DNA of 64,000 nucleotides from Pedococcus dokdonensis (GTDB taxonomy: Bacteria; Actinomycetota; Actinomycetes; Actinomycetales; Dermatophilaceae), in the NCBI RefSeq assembly GCF_900104525.1, contig NZ_LT629711.1, positions 1,984,001 to 2,048,000 on the forward strand, written 5' to 3'. This document shows positions 3,876 to 64,000 of the stretch, piece by piece. Below the pieces are notes generated by a model that was not told the origin of the DNA, searched no databases, and saw nothing but the letters and a program-made list of their open reading frames with translations. Positions within the stretch are counted from its first letter, which is position 1, and each line of letters opens with the position of its first letter. Position numbers and translations under genes: made by a program.

Positions 3876-4385
3876 ATGCTTCCCCGGCGCCCACGCACGA
3901 CCCGACGACGCTCCGAGAGCGGAGCCTCAGCCGTCGAGTTCGCCCTGATCCTGCCCGTCTTCGTGCTGATCATCGCGGCGATCCTGGACTTCGGTTTCAT
4001 CTTCGCCCAGCAGGTCCAGCTGAACAACGCAGCCCGTGACGCCGCACGCCAGGCGGTCGTCAAGAACCTCGCCGGCACCGCCATCACCTGCACCGAGACG
4101 GTGTCGAAGGCACGGGCCGGGTCGCAGACCGTGGGCATCTCCGGCGCCGAGACCGCGAAGGTCGGCGTCAGGGTCGAGCGAGCCGACACGGCGAACAGCT
4201 GCTACGCACCCCCGTCGGGCTCCGTCACCTCCTCGACCACGCCGTGCACCGGTGCCGGTAGCACCCCCGCCAACAACCCCCTGACGGTCACGCTGACCTA
4301 CACGTCGACCGCTCCCCTGCCCCTCCCCTACCTCAACAGCAAGGTGCTGACGGCCCAAGGAGTCTTCCAGTGCGAGTACAAGTGA
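3876..4385 (+). CDS. TadE-like pseudopilin
   Basis: A 169-residue protein with an Arg-rich cytoplasmic head, then SESGASAVEFALILPVFVLI, the class III (Tad/Flp) pseudopilin signature with Glu after the cleavage region, followed by one hydrophobic helix (~20-45) and a Thr/Ser-rich exported domain. TadE-type proteins are minor pseudopilins processed by a TadV/CpaA prepilin peptidase and used in Flp pilus or Tad secretion assembly. ATG 3876 is chosen over upstream in-frame starts because AGGAGAG lies 8 bases upstream and the pseudopilin head then has normal length. The next gene overlaps its end by 16 bp. No TadA, TadB, TadC or peptidase gene is in the window. Confidence 0.85.
   Translation: MLPRRPRTTRRRSESGASAVEFALILPVFVLIIAAILDFGFIFAQQVQLNNAARDAARQAVVKNLAGTAITCTETVSKARAGSQTVGISGAETAKVGVRVERADTANSCYAPPSGSVTSSTTPCTGAGSTPANNPLTVTLTYTSTAPLPLPYLNSKVLTAQGVFQCEYK
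4357..4362 (+). promoter_or_regulatory. Ribosome binding site fixing the GTG start of the TadG-like gene
   Basis: AAGGAG is followed by 7 bases and GTG at 4370. The alternative ATG at 4385 would be 22 bases away. The site therefore favours GTG 4370 and a 16-bp overlap with the preceding gene. Confidence 0.65.
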
Positions 4386-5665
4386 TGCGCAGCAGGAGAG
4401 AGCGTGGGGCGGTAGCCCTCACGGCCGGTCTCCTCATGATTCCGGTCCTCGTCATCGCCGCCTTCGGCGTCGACTTCGGGAACGCCTACACGCAGGGACA
4501 GGCCTTCGCCGCAGGCGCCGATAGTGGGGCCCTGGCCATCACGCAGCGGGCCCAGTCGATGATGACCCAGAGCCCCTCCACCTACCCCAACTGCGCTGCG
4601 GTGGTGAACGCCGACCCGGGCTTCACGAACGCCAAGGCGCTCGCCCTCTCGGCGGTCAACGCCAACGCCCCGTTCAGCAGGCAGCTGCCCGCTTCAGCCG
4701 TGAACGCCACCATGACGTGCCAGGGCGCTTCGCTCGTGGCCGACGTGACCGTCCAGGCCAATGTCGGCACCTCCATCGGAGGCATGGTGGGCGTCTCGTC
4801 GATCGCGGCGAACCGGGCCGCACAGGCCGTCATCGACCTCGGCGGTCGCTCCAAGTGCGGGCTCTGCATCATCGGCCCCGGCTCCCACGACCTCCAGAAC
4901 GGCAGTGTCACGGTCAACCAGGCCGGCGTCAGCGTCAACGGCACCGTGGTGGCCAACCCCCAGGGTGAGATCACCATCGTCACCACCGGCACCGACGTGA
5001 TCAGCTTCCAGGGCTCCACGCCCAACAAGGGCACCTACGTCCCCACCCCGCTGGAGAACCAGCCGCCCATCGCCGACCCGCTCGCGGGTCTGCTCCTCCC
5101 GCCGGCCAGCGTCAGCACCCTCGCGGTGAAGACCAACCCGTGCACCGACGGACCGGGCATCTACCTCAACAGCATCGACGCCTCCGACCCCTGCATCATG
5201 AGCACCGGTCTCTACGTCTTCGCCGGCCAGTTCGACCTGAAGAACCGCACCGTCCGCGCCAACGGCGTCACGATGTACTTCACCTGCAAGACGACCACGA
5301 GCCCGATCACGATCCGCCCGTGCAGCTCGGGCGGCGAGGACGGCGGGAACATGCAGCAGGCCGGTAATGGCGACTTCATCTTCAGCGCTCCGACCACCGG
5401 TGACACCGCGGGCCTGGCCCTGGTCGCCGACCGCAACAACACCGCGACGTCGTCCTACCGTGGCAGCGCGACGGGTCAGAGCACCGGGACGATCTACCTG
5501 AAGTCCGGGACGCTCGACTTCCGGGGCACGGCCGGCACGACCAGCCTGGACTCCCTCGTCATCACCGGGAACATGACCTTCAGCGGTCAGGCTCCCGTGA
5601 TCATCACCTACACCGAGAGCAAGAACGTCCCGATCCCCGCGACCAACAACCGGCTGACCAGGTAG
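4370..5665 (+). CDS. TadG/TadE-N-like exported pseudopilin-type protein
   Basis: A 431-residue protein starting RSRRERGAVALTAGLLMIPVLVIAAFGVDFGNAYTQG. This is the N-terminal domain of putative Flp pilus-assembly TadG-like proteins: a single helix followed by an Asp and an alpha-helical Ala-rich segment. From ~150 it becomes Gly/Thr/Ser-rich with two Cys in SKCGLCIIG and many beta-strand-like repeats (VTVNQAGVSVNGTVV), ending in ITGNMTFSGQAPVIITY, which suggests a beta-solenoid or adhesin-like exported domain. It likely acts with the TadE-like protein just upstream, with which it is translationally coupled. A strong hairpin lies 18 bases after the stop. The exact role is unknown. Confidence 0.75.
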   Translation: MRVQVMRSRRERGAVALTAGLLMIPVLVIAAFGVDFGNAYTQGQAFAAGADSGALAITQRAQSMMTQSPSTYPNCAAVVNADPGFTNAKALALSAVNANAPFSRQLPASAVNATMTCQGASLVADVTVQANVGTSIGGMVGVSSIAANRAAQAVIDLGGRSKCGLCIIGPGSHDLQNGSVTVNQAGVSVNGTVVANPQGEITIVTTGTDVISFQGSTPNKGTYVPTPLENQPPIADPLAGLLLPPASVSTLAVKTNPCTDGPGIYLNSIDASDPCIMSTGLYVFAGQFDLKNRTVRANGVTMYFTCKTTTSPITIRPCSSGGEDGGNMQQAGNGDFIFSAPTTGDTAGLALVADRNNTATSSYRGSATGQSTGTIYLKSGTLDFRGTAGTTSLDSLVITGNMTFSGQAPVIITYTESKNVPIPATNNRLTR

Positions 5666-5683: not shown

Positions 5684-5719
5684 CGACGCCCGGCACCACG
5701 TGAGTGGTGCCGGGCGTCG
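5684..5719 (+). terminator. Perfect 16-bp hairpin after the + strand TadG-like gene
   Basis: CGACGCCCGGCACCAC (5684-5699), loop GTGA, then GTGGTGCCGGGCGTCG (5704-5719): a perfect 16-bp stem with a 4-base loop, 18 bases after the stop codon. No U-tract follows, as is common in high-GC actinobacteria, so terminator function is inferred from position and stability. Confidence 0.75.
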
Positions 5720-5723
5720 CCGT

Positions 5724-6214
5724 CGCGACTTCTGGCCGGAGGTGTGCGGTGCGAGCCGATCTGATGCCGCCACACCGCATACCGGTGGCCAGAAGTGGGT
5801 CCACCCTCGCGACTTCTGGCCGGAGGTGTGCGGTGGAGCCGATCTGATGCCGCCACACCGCAGACCGGTGGCCAGAAGTGGGTCCACCCCCGCGACTTCT
5901 GGCCACGAGTACGCGGTGAAGCCGGCGTCGAGGGCCGCACACCGCAGACCGGTGGCCAGAAGTGGGTCCACCCTCGCGACTTCTGGCCACGAGTATGCGG
6001 TGGGGCCGGCGTCGAGGGCCGCACACCGCATACCGGTGGCCAGAAGTGGGTCCACCCCCGCGACTTCTGGCCACGAGTATGCGGTGGAGCCCGGCGCGAG
6101 GGCCGCACACCGCAGACCGGTGGCCAGAAGTGGGTCCACCCCCGCGACTTCTGGCCACGAGTATGCGGTGGGGCCGATCTGATGCCGCCACACCGCAGAC
6201 CGGTGGCCAGAAGT
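5724..6214. repeat. Six-unit tandem array of 83-84 bp palindromic repeats
   Basis: Units begin at 5724, 5808, 5891, 5975, 6059 and 6143, each with CGCGACTTCTGGCC. Each unit folds on itself. The outer arms are CTTCTGGCC(AC) and (GT)GGCCAGAAG, the inner arms TATGCGGTG-type and CACCGCATA-type, around a 15-20 base centre. The unit-to-unit junction GTGGGTCCACCC is also palindromic, so neighbouring arms can pair as well. Centres are of two kinds: CCGATCTGATGCCG in units 1, 2 and 6, and CCGGCGTCGAGGGCC-like in 3-5. Left arms are also of two kinds (units 1-2 against 3-6). Because 84 is a multiple of 3, several long but meaningless open frames run through the array on both strands. Confidence 0.95.
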
Positions 6215-6236
6215 CGGTTTCGGCTGGCGGACGCCA

Positions 6237-6273
6237 CGACGCCCGGAACCACTCGAGGTGGTCCCGGGCGTCG
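6237..6273 (-). terminator. Hairpin after the reverse-strand pseudopilin operon
   Basis: CGACGCCCGG + AACCAC at 6237-6252 pairs with GTGGT + CCCGGGCGTCG at 6258-6273: 10 bp, one mismatch, then 5 bp. It lies ~37 bases past the stop at 6311 of the reverse gene. Its arm sequence is nearly that of the hairpin at 5684, so the repeat array is bracketed by two related terminator-like stems. Confidence 0.7.
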
Positions 6274-6310: not shown

Positions 6311-7927
6311 TCACTCCACGAGGCGGACCGGGTCGCCGGCGACGTTGGCGGTCCAGGACGTGGTGTCAGCGGGTCCCGATCCCGGGCCGTAGTAGAACTC
6401 GAGGCGCAGCCAGCACCCCGTCGGGGAGGTGTCCTGGCACGTGTAGCCCGAGGGGATGGGCACGGTGACGTCCTGCCACTGGCCGTTGAACGCGGAGCTG
6501 ACGTTGATGGTGCAGTCGGTCAACGCCCCGTTCTGGACGCCGCTGCCCTGGCAGCCCGAGAAGGTGTTCCCGTACTCCTGGGGCGGCATCACCTTGACGG
6601 TGCTGCCGGCGGTGGCGCCGTCACCGATGTCGAAGAGCCGCACGGTGAACAGCTGTCCCCGGGAACCGGTCGGCACCTTGGCCAGGTAGAACTTGGACGT
6701 GCCGTTCGGGGTGTTCCCGTACATCGCCATCTTGGCGTAGCCGGAGATCGAGATGTGGTCCTTGTCGCCGCCGCTGCTGCCATAGGCCCGGAGGCTGAAC
6801 CGGTTGTGGCCGCTGGCGGCGTCGCTGCCGAGGCCGTTGGTCTTGATCTGCACGAGGTAGGTGCCCTTCGAGACCCCACCGGTCATCGTGCAGAGCGGCT
6901 TCCACTGCCGGAAGTTCGCCGCCACGTCGGGCCGGGCGTTGTATTCGGGGCTGTTCTTCTTCAGCACCTTGGCCATGTCGCCGTCGTAGCCGGCGAACGT
7001 CTTCGCCGCACAGCTGGCGCTGGTCATGACCGGGTAGCTCAACGGGTCCCAGGCGTTCTGGCTGAGGCCACGCATGGTGAACTGCGTCTGCACCTCGCCG
7101 GTCCCGCCGAACCGCACGTCACCGGTGCACATCGGCGAGGTCGCGTTCGGGGCGTACCGGACGTCGGGGTCGGAGACCACCGTCTGCCCCAGGCTGTAGC
7201 TCAGGTTGTCGGCGCCCGCGAGGTTGTTGACGTCGCACTTGTCGCCCACGGCGATCAGGGCGGGGTCGAACGCCTCGATGGTGAGCGACGGCATGTCCTG
7301 GTCGAGGGTGATGCTGTAGAAGTACCCGTTCGCGTCGTAGTCGCTGTTGCTGCCCATGCTGTTCTGGAACGCGTCGCCGTTGCCCTTGGGCGCCTGGGGA
7401 GAGCCGACGTTCGCCCAGAACGCACCGGTGTTGTTGCAGTTGCTGCTGCGGTTGCCGGAGGGGTAGGGGTCGTCGCCGTACTCGTTGCAGGGGCTGCCCA
7501 TCGGGACGGGTCCGGCGTAGTCGGCGACGGCCGACCGCGCGATCGTCGTCGTCGGCACGCCGAGCAGCCAGCCGAACTGGTTCTTCACCGTCGTCGTGAC
7601 CTTGACCCGCAGGCGGGTGGGGCGACCGTCGATGGAGGGGGTGACGGTGGTGACGCCGACGTTCTCGAACTCGTTCTTCTTCGACTGCAGGCGGGCCGTG
7701 CTGAAAGCCGACGCCTGGTCGCTCGGCAGGTAGGGCACGCCGGCGAGGGCCGCGGCATCCGCCGCCTTCTGGGCCTTCTGGCCCACGTAGTACCAGTTGC
7801 CCACGTCGACGGCGAAGGCACAGAAGCCCAGCAGGACGGTGAGCATGATCGCCACGGTGACGGCGACGTAGCCGCGCTCGCTCCGGGCCCGCAGCCGTCG
7901 CAGGACCCTGGGTTGCAGCCGGCTCAC
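6311..7927 (-). CDS. TadG-like exported protein with N-terminal pseudopilin domain
   Basis: A 538-residue protein. The head SERGYVAVTVAIMLTVLLGFCAFAVDVGNWYYVGQKAQKAADAAALAG is the N-terminal TadG/pilus-assembly domain: one helix, then the D-x-G-x-x-Y and A-A-D-A-A-A-L-A pattern. The exported remainder (~60-538) is rich in Asn, Gly and Thr with several Cys, and its C-terminal ~130 residues look like a beta-sandwich (VKVMPPQEYGN, WTANVAGDPVRLVE). The GTG start at 7927 overlaps the preceding TadE stop as GTGA and gives a normal short basic head. It is the third gene of a tadE-tadE-tadG set. The product is probably a large minor pseudopilin or tip adhesin; the ligand is unknown. Confidence 0.78.
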   Translation of the reverse strand: MSRLQPRVLRRLRARSERGYVAVTVAIMLTVLLGFCAFAVDVGNWYYVGQKAQKAADAAALAGVPYLPSDQASAFSTARLQSKKNEFENVGVTTVTPSIDGRPTRLRVKVTTTVKNQFGWLLGVPTTTIARSAVADYAGPVPMGSPCNEYGDDPYPSGNRSSNCNNTGAFWANVGSPQAPKGNGDAFQNSMGSNSDYDANGYFYSITLDQDMPSLTIEAFDPALIAVGDKCDVNNLAGADNLSYSLGQTVVSDPDVRYAPNATSPMCTGDVRFGGTGEVQTQFTMRGLSQNAWDPLSYPVMTSASCAAKTFAGYDGDMAKVLKKNSPEYNARPDVAANFRQWKPLCTMTGGVSKGTYLVQIKTNGLGSDAASGHNRFSLRAYGSSGGDKDHISISGYAKMAMYGNTPNGTSKFYLAKVPTGSRGQLFTVRLFDIGDGATAGSTVKVMPPQEYGNTFSGCQGSGVQNGALTDCTINVSSAFNGQWQDVTVPIPSGYTCQDTSPTGCWLRLEFYYGPGSGPADTTSWTANVAGDPVRLVE

Positions 7928-62261: not shown

Positions 62262-62900
62262 ATGGCACTGACCCGTGAGCAGATGGCCGCGCGTGCGGCC
62301 GCCGAGCTGTCCGACGGCTCCTACGTCAACCTCGGCATCGGGCTGCCGACGCTGGTCCCCAACTACGTGCCCGACGACGTCGAGATCGTGCTCCAGTCCG
62401 AGAACGGCATCCTCGGGGTCGGCGCCTATCCCGTTGACGGGGAAGAGGACCCCGACCTGATCAACGCCGGCAAGGAGACCGTGACGCTGCGTCGGGGTTC
62501 CTCGTTCTTCGACTCGGCGACGTCGTTCGGGATGATCCGCGGCGGCAAGGTCGACGCCGCCATCCTCGGCGCCATGCAGGTGTCGGCCAAGGGCGACATC
62601 GCCAACTGGATGATCCCCGGCAAGATGGTCAAGGGCATGGGCGGCGCGATGGACCTGGTCCACGGTGCGAAGAAGGTCATCGTCCTGATGGAGCACAACG
62701 CCAAGGACGGCTCCTACAAGATCGTCGACGAGTGCTCGCTCCCCTACACCGGTCGCGGTGTCGTGCAGCGCATCATCACCGACCTCTGCGTCTTCGACGT
62801 CACCGAGGACGGGCTGGTGCTGCGCGAGCTCGCCGAGGGCGTGACCGAGGACGAGGTCCGCGCGAAGACCGAGCCGGCCTTCACCGTCGACCTCGGCTAG
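62262..62900 (+). CDS. scoB: 3-oxoacid CoA-transferase subunit B
   Basis: A 212-residue beta subunit. The catalytic Glu47 lies in [11 protein letters not shown]; other blocks are [47 protein letters not shown] and [24 protein letters not shown] sits 6 bases before ATG 62262. It is cotranscribed with scoA. Downstream lie a short gap and the 14-bp tandem repeat. Confidence 0.96.
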
Positions 62901-62935
62901 CCGACCGCCGGGCGGCTGGCGCCCGCCCGGCGACC

Positions 62936-63019
62936 GTCAGCGCAGGATGGTCAGCGCAGGATGGTCAGCGCAGGATGGTCAGCGCAGGATGGTCAGCGCA
63001 GGATGGTCAGCGCAGGATG
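62936..63019. repeat. Six perfect copies of a 14-bp tandem repeat covering a stop codon
   Basis: GTCAGCGCAGGATG repeats at 62936, 62950, 62964, 62978, 62992 and 63006. On the reverse strand each copy contains CATCCTGCGCTGA, so the last copy encodes the last residues (I-L-R) and stop of the reverse gene ending at 63007, and the others lie behind it as non-coding copies. Since 14 is not a multiple of 3, frame changes between copies. The array is probably variable in length. Confidence 0.95.
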
Positions 63020-64000
63020 GTGGAGAAGATCTGCCAGCCGTTGCCGACGACGACCCTGGGCTTCCACCCGCCCGCCCCGTTGCCGGGGTAGAGGTAGAGC
63101 AGCCCTGAGGAGGTGCGGGCCAGGACGTCGGCCTTGCCGTCGCCGTTGAAGTCGCCGCCGCTCGTCAGTGCCGTGAAGATGTCCCACCCCTTGCCGACCT
63201 GGACGGCCGGCTTCCACCCACCGGTGCCGTCACCGGCATACAGCAAGAACGTGCCGTCGGCCTTGCGCGCCAGCACATCCGGGTGACCGTCGCCGGTGAA
63301 GTCCCCGGGGCTGAGGACGGAGGTGAAGATGTTCCACCCACCACCGATCGTCCGGTAGCCCTTGAAACCGCCGGCGCCGTTGCCGGAGTAGAGCCACAGG
63401 GCACCGTCGCTCGCGCGTCGGGCGATGAGGTCGGTGAGCCCGTCGCCGTCGAAGTCGCCGACCGGGAGGACCAGGTTGTGCATGGTCCACCCGGCGCCGA
63501 TCTTCTTGGCCGCGCCGAAGGTGCCGTTGCCGAGCCCGCTTCGCAGGTAGAGGTTTCCGGCGGTGTCCTGCACGACCACGTCGCTGACCGTGTCGGCGTC
63601 CCAGGTGCCGGCGGTCAGCGCCTTCGCGTAGGAGTTCCACCCACTGGGCTCGGCCACCGTCGTGGGGTTCCAGCCGCCCTTGCCGTTGCCGGAGTAGACG
63701 CGCAGCGCCCCGGTGCTGGCCACGACGGCGAGGACGTCCATCTTCGCGTCGCCCGTGACGTCGCGCGGGAACGACGACGCCGACTCGAGCCGGGGCGCGA
63801 ACCAGTCACTCCACGTGTGCCCGAACACGCTGCGCAGCGACGAGACGCTCGGGCTCACCGATCCCTTGGTCCCGGTGATGGTGGCGCCGAGGACCCGGCC
63901 ACCCTGGTCGCCGAGACCGTTGCGGGAGGTGATCGTCATGGTGCGGAAGGACCCGATGGTCGGATAGCTGGACTCGATGGTCGAGGTCGAGATCGTCTGC
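63007..64000 (-). CDS. Exported SpoIID-like and FG-GAP repeat protein (5' part beyond window)
   Basis: The frame is open to the right edge, so the true start is outside the window. At the far end TISTSTIESSYPTIGSFRTMTITSRNGLGDQGGRVLGATITGTKGSV and SLRSVFGHTWSDWFAPRLES resemble the end of a SpoIID/LytB domain (R-S-x-F-G/L-x-S-x-W-F). Then follow about five FG-GAP/VCBS repeats, each with a D-x-x-x-D-x-x-x-D calcium-like loop (DFDGDGLTDLIARR, DFTGDGHPDVLARK, DFNGDGKADVLART) and the motif YSGNGxGGW. It is probably secreted and wall-related. The stop lies within the 14-bp tandem repeat. Confidence 0.72.
   Translation of the reverse strand, partial: QTISTSTIESSYPTIGSFRTMTITSRNGLGDQGGRVLGATITGTKGSVSPSVSSLRSVFGHTWSDWFAPRLESASSFPRDVTGDAKMDVLAVVASTGALRVYSGNGKGGWNPTTVAEPSGWNSYAKALTAGTWDADTVSDVVVQDTAGNLYLRSGLGNGTFGAAKKIGAGWTMHNLVLPVGDFDGDGLTDLIARRASDGALWLYSGNGAGGFKGYRTIGGGWNIFTSVLSPGDFTGDGHPDVLARKADGTFLLYAGDGTGGWKPAVQVGKGWDIFTALTSGGDFNGDGKADVLARTSSGLLYLYPGNGAGGWKPRVVVGNGWQIFSTILR

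Follow-up and report, generated by a model that had tools for sequence, protein, structure and literature searches.

The six tandem repeat units that lie between two convergent sets of pilus-type genes in Pedococcus dokdonensis are one place of a repeat family dispersed over the chromosome. In the fetched stretches and the window (the whole stretch of 64,000 nucleotides analysed here), this genome holds 72 units at 44 loci when at most 3 of 18 arm positions are allowed to mismatch, and eight of these loci carry arrays of two to nine units. Each unit has two half-sites of about 24 bp, inverted relative to each other, on either side of a 20-21-bp centre without conserved sequence, and its length is 67 bp (69 bp with the outer A and T) at 42 of the 44 loci and 66 bp at two. 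The array most likely works as double-stranded DNA, with a putative protein binding both half-sites at one helical phase; we hold this reading with about even confidence.

The window array and its dispersed family

A preliminary description of the window had proposed six copies of a unit of about 84 bp between convergent pilus-type genes, and this is confirmed. Tandem Repeats Finder places the array at 5724-6218 (period 84, 5.9 copies, score 695), and reading the units from the sequence gives six paired-site units at 5728-6214 with a period of 83-84 bp. From ACTT to AAGT, the units measure 69, 68, 69, 69, 69, and 68 bp; successive periods are 84, 83, 84, 84, and 84 bp, with joints of 15 bp. 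The features are as follows:

5728..6214, no strand: six-unit array of the paired-site repeat (Tandem Repeats Finder and unit reading)
5728..5796, no strand: unit 1, 69 bp, ACTT..AAGT; type-1 left arm, type-1 centre
5797..5811, no strand: joint between units 1 and 2, 15 bp
5812..5879, no strand: unit 2, 68 bp; type-1 left arm, type-1 centre
5895..5963, no strand: unit 3, 69 bp; type-2 left arm, type-2 centre
5979..6047, no strand: unit 4, 69 bp; type-2 left arm, type-2 centre
6063..6131, no strand: unit 5, 69 bp; variant of the type-2 left arm, type-2 centre combination
6147..6214, no strand: unit 6, 68 bp; mosaic of a type-2 left arm and a type-1 centre
5880-5894, 5964-5978, 6048-6062, and 6132-6146, no strand: the remaining four joints
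5684..5719, + strand: terminator-like hairpin of the left (+) operon (folding, z -8.4)
6237..6273, - strand: terminator-like hairpin of the right (-) operon (folded as + strand, z -4.35)
4370..5665, + strand: left flanking gene, without a Pfam match (scan from 4385); a TadE gene lies upstream at 3876-4385
6311..7927, - strand: right flanking gene, Tad/TadE-type pilus assembly (Pfam)

The flanking genes are convergent, and those with Pfam matches encode Tad/TadE pilus-assembly proteins. The unit reading bears out the two left-arm types and two centre types described earlier, including the mixed combination in unit 6, and such mosaic units support recombination within the array. The terminator-like stems said to bracket the array were found again on both sides, and its lack of coding content is likewise supported. 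The predicted fold of unit 1 is strong (-43.4 kcal/mol, z -5.7). Any match to the array site was obtained in 7 of the 11 genus genomes, the own genome included, and was limited to parts of the pilus genes.

Two other short repeats occur in the window. A 14-bp unit, GTCAGCGCAGGATG, is present in six perfect copies at 62936-63021, a few dozen bases past a TAG at about 62899-62901. At 2883-2938, about 4.7 copies of a 12-bp repeat encode a charged stretch; it lies close to the N-terminus in a large open reading frame of the minus strand (1085-2956), which by eye resembles a sensor kinase.

The suggestion that the unit is a dispersed repeat was supported by a BLAST search of the array in its own genome, which matched many places. 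For the family search, a gap-free alignment of 24 units was turned into a sequence model, and the chromosome was scanned with it, the best 150 of 10593 candidates being scored. The 11-mer ACTTCTGGCCA has 105 sites in 3.94 Mb (53 + 52) versus 4 for the reversed control, an excess that identifies a repeat family rather than chance. Among the 100 of these 105 sites that were listed, 98 lie inside units and the other two adjoin units. It had been argued that a special role would be unlikely for a unit confined to this spot at a fixed copy number; the unit occurs at 44 loci, and copy number varies between loci sharing flanks, with five units at L010 against one at L049 and four at L009 against one at L103. 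The proposed tie to pilin rearrangement was not supported, as other loci adjoin infB/rbfA, secA, pdxS-type, and inositol-phosphate-synthase genes. The infB and rbfA genes usually share one operon, and the array between them, at positions 2578-3324 of L012, has nine units.

Half-sites, spacing and arm dialects

When both unit halves are folded together, the half-site resolves into box 1 (ACTTCTGGCCAC, positions 1-12), two free positions, box 2 (approximately RTGC.G.., positions 15-24 or so), and then little. Among the own loci with units of at most 3 of 18 arm mismatches, 26 have none, 12 have one, 3 have two, and 3 have three. Neutral arms would be scrambled like the centres, so this steep fall-off points to constraint on the arms. 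Between own loci, the best identity of the 21-nt centres in 946 pairs is 0.71, the same as the 95% point for the maximum in shuffled sequence (0.71). Within arrays, centres are near-identical in six of eight cases, the exceptions being the window array and the two-unit array of L014 (mean 0.50); these within-array identities are 5% high, since the divisor was 20 for a core of 21 nt.

For 19 locus pairs with one or both flanks in common, the own genome could be compared with P. bigeumensis, Phycicoccus sp. Soil802, or P. cremeus. Their interiors inside box 1 can hardly be aligned, with an identity of 0.497 versus 0.454 (sd 0.079) for unrelated loci, although identity at neighbouring fourfold sites is 0.70 (7349 sites); most of these loci came from an exact-arm search, which builds part of the arm conservation in. 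More generally, the search in the named species required exact arms and a near-fixed length, and that for own loci relied on models of the 67-bp form; conservation of arms and length is therefore partly built in. Length was left free only in the two dialect searches, from 50 to 72 bp for ACTTNNGGCCA and from 50 to 78 bp for ACTTGTTGC. In a closer species pair (G161 and G162), one unit is the same by descent, with identical arms, few changes, and one extra inner base. The centres may have been random from the outset and not through drift.

Single copies of the half-site stand beside full units at L022 (about 1400-1610), L069 (about 1400-1500), and L073 (about 1430-1510), which indicates that half-sites can also duplicate alone. 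A motif, CGGCATACC / GGTATGCCG, recurs near units and at empty sites (L024, L138, L141, L158, and others) and perhaps represents remnants of box 2.

In congeners, the arm letters differ and the design and its ruler are kept, with one dialect shorter by 10 bp, about one DNA turn. Unit lengths were counted in all fetched loci with at most two arm mismatches and length free from about 45 to 89 bp. Under these settings, units measure 68-69 bp in 106 of 110 cases for CTGGCC arms and in 46 of 61 for GTTGC arms (other genera included), and 58-59 bp in 27 of 31 cases for CGGGCC arms; the argument from one helical turn is based on these two length classes. A search for the CTGGCC form with both arms exact in one-genome-per-species GTDB contigs, from which own-genome records may be left out, gave 27 stretches; P. 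cremeus, P. bigeumensis, and Phycicoccus sp. Soil802 account for all of them. The model search detected own-type arms in 4 of 11 genus genomes, and G161 carries P. cremeus units.

The shorter class is represented in G002 and G001, where arms are ACTTCGGGCC and units are 58-59 bp long. Pairs of ACTTNNGGCCA occur in 7 of 186 family genomes, with no reversed-control match in those seven and two and one such matches in two other genomes. Pairs of ACTTGTTGC occur in 11 of the 186, where reversed controls gave none. Within the genus, ACTTGTTGC arms are carried by G005, G001, G008, G003, and G010, and the units listed there are all 68-69 bp long. In two genomes of another genus, the pairs measure 72-73 bp in eight of nine cases, with one of 52 bp (G109), and 69-70 bp in five of five (G111); G170 has one pair of 69 bp. 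The single pairs of G099, G103, and G104 (56-62 bp) resemble plain hairpins and may be unrelated to the paired-site repeat. As 59-bp and 69-bp dialects stand side by side in G001, length is tied to the arms and not to the genome. At one matching site, a two-unit array is present both in the own genome (L020, long form) and in G002 (L083, short form).

The spacing between units is equally regular. In all fetched loci, the tandem joint is 14-15 bp long in 55 of 60 junctions and is present in 30 of 31 arrays; the exceptions measure 12, 13, 23, 24, and 30 bp. This constant joint spans three arm dialects and both length classes, and unit plus joint amounts to 72-74 bp in one class and 82-84 bp in the other, lengths that come near 7 and 8 turns of 10.5 bp.

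Gene ends, base pairing and rival explanations

The repeat sits mostly behind stop codons. With genes called by a crude open-reading-frame caller and the window as the one baseline, 80 of 81 groups could be classified, as 38 convergent, 37 tandem, and 5 divergent, compared with 4, 13, and 8 for the 25 other window gaps that are 40 bp or longer. By Fisher tests, convergent settings are overrepresented (P 0.005) and divergent settings underrepresented (P 0.002). Own loci comprise 19 convergent, 21 tandem, 3 divergent, and 1 unclassified. Other dialects contribute 37 groups (19, 16, and 2) after removal of those less than 250 bp from a stretch end or lacking a called gene on both sides, and a stop codon lies within 30 bp in 26 of the 37. 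In tandem settings, 32 of 37 groups are nearer to the stop than to the start (sign test, P 7e-6).

Matching gaps differ in occupancy. Beside secA, a unit is present in the own genome and G005 (2 of 11 genus genomes), and the other nine have short gaps or other sequence. Before smc, the own genome and G008 carry a unit (again 2 of 11) and G005 does not; in G003, two tandem units of the GTTGC dialect stand there. At L155 (G001) and L163 (G009), the gap before smc contains a different palindromic array, CCGAAGTCYSRGACTTCGG, whose ACTTCGG..CCGAAGT pieces measure about 31-35 bp and which may be one more relative of the paired-site design.

Strong folds and a location behind stop codons would suit a bidirectional RNA hairpin, acting as a terminator or as a stabiliser of mRNA 3' ends common to convergent genes, and palindromy would yield a nearly identical hairpin from either strand. 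Inner folds are on average more stable than shuffles (mean z -1.59 over 24), and the symmetric register as a whole pairs above shuffles (sum of z +19.0 versus -12.8 to +6.2 in eight slid registers). This excess lies chiefly in box 2, at about columns 16-24; we read it as both halves sharing a dialect, yet it is the main evidence on the hairpin side. The centre columns, however, pair no better than shuffles in the symmetric and the eight slid registers, while total length is kept, the opposite of usual hairpins. A hairpin RNA should keep its pairs and let the loop length drift; the reverse is found here, which favours double-stranded DNA. In addition, terminator-like hairpins already flank the window array on both sides, no T-run of the kind that marks an intrinsic terminator follows the units inspected, Rfam has no match in the window at gathering thresholds, and nine units stand between infB and rbfA. 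We therefore regard the RNA explanation as decidedly improbable. The same evidence bears on two earlier suggestions. A transcription block between the operons is possible, but the array is already bracketed by terminator-like hairpins. Two alternative foldings are not supported as the working principle, since the inter-unit palindrome GGGTCCACCC belongs to the window array only, the joints of other arrays differ in sequence, and centre pairing is not conserved.

The closest published design is that of REPINs, REP doublets that form hairpins and stand in tandem clusters; Bertels and Rainey 2011 (PMC3116915) link them to RAYTs and give the distance within a doublet as 71 bp in P. fluorescens. 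The likeness extends to the inverted, short, conserved pair at extragenic positions and fixed distance, to a spacer less conserved than the ends, and to tandem near-identical units, of which our material has 31 arrays overall. Together with the presence or absence of units at matching gaps and the other-dialect array before smc, it could be explained by a selfish repeat whose inverted doublets are copied in trans by a non-Y1/RAYT transposase and inserted preferentially behind genes, with the acceptance of the enzyme setting length and dialects. We consider this the main rival reading, though a rather unlikely one. The Y1 transposase of REPINs (PF01797, the cognate RAYT) was found in none of the 11 genus genomes, with 5 of 14 controls positive, and RAYT/REPIN machinery was set aside as a candidate. 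No pair of own loci shares its centre beyond chance, which speaks against recent copying, and a longer parent with the same ends was not seen among the listed sites of exact box 1. At the smc-side empty site, no target duplication is visible by eye; other sites are too diverged. Unlike REPINs, the paired-site repeat has few singlets (2 of 100 box-1 sites listed), length classes about one turn apart, and a constant joint. As to a conserved hairpin of ends and spacer, its arms pair and box 2 pairs above shuffles, but the centre does not.

Other repeat classes share single traits with it. The CGTC REPs, palindromic pairs apparently without a dedicated transposase in the consulted part of PMC3733652, differ in the GTAG or CGTC tag that such repeats bear at one end of a 20-40-bp palindrome: by eye, neither tag stands at the unit ends, which read ACTT..AAGT. 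With BIMEs, the repeat shares alternating inverted sites, two spacings, 3' intergenic positions, and arrays, a likeness of design. The BIMEs of E. coli are alternating REPs that bind gyrase and IHF. MITEs are short intergenic elements with inverted ends, many copies, and target duplication. Units of the paired-site repeat are also short, intergenic, and multicopy with inverted ends, but their arms appear constrained long after any spread. By design, we thus class the repeat with the REPIN/BIME kind, but not as a member of the REPIN family. Our literature search returned no description of it, or of REPINs, in its clade, and PMC6006769 makes no mention of Actinobacteria or Streptomyces.

A neutral origin, in which old miniature elements persist without selection and arrays arise by slippage, agrees with the restriction of own-type arms to part of the genus and with there being no known partner gene. 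It is nevertheless very improbable, because arm mismatches drop steeply across loci whose centres are randomised and unit length is kept. The search covered the best 150 candidates, so a series of decayed full-length copies may exist.

A putative phased DNA platform

Of the roles suggested earlier, that of a structural or binding site is supported as a possible one. Two protein-bound sites on double-stranded DNA would agree with a length that is fixed though the sequence is free, with the constant joint, and with a dialect shorter by about one turn. One putative protein would read both half-sites, with the centre as a mere spacer, 20-21 bp (about two turns) or 10-11 bp (about one turn) long. 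Tandem units, with repeat lengths of about 7 or 8 turns, would then have all their sites on the same face of the helix, and the arrays would act as phased multi-site platforms, probably growing and shrinking by unequal crossing-over in an 83-bp register. In the cell, they might serve as boundary or topology sites between gene ends, which is the least certain step of the model. Among 20 proteins encoded near array, pilus, and solo loci and compared with Pfam, 14 matched and none was a transposase or recombinase.

REP-type repeats have long been debated as selfish DNA or binding sites. In the present family, ends, length, and joint are kept, centres are randomised, and RAYT was not found, so that copying and selection on geometry can be told apart; dialects that differ by one-turn steps make the idea of phasing directly testable. 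As a tentative broader proposal, which we hold at clearly less than even confidence, the Intrasporangiaceae may possess a novel type of chromosomal nucleoprotein system. In it, a fast-diversifying putative DNA-binding protein family would read pairs of 24-bp half-sites one or two turns apart and line them up at gene ends as phased arrays, and it would also drive the species dialects under a fixed ruler.
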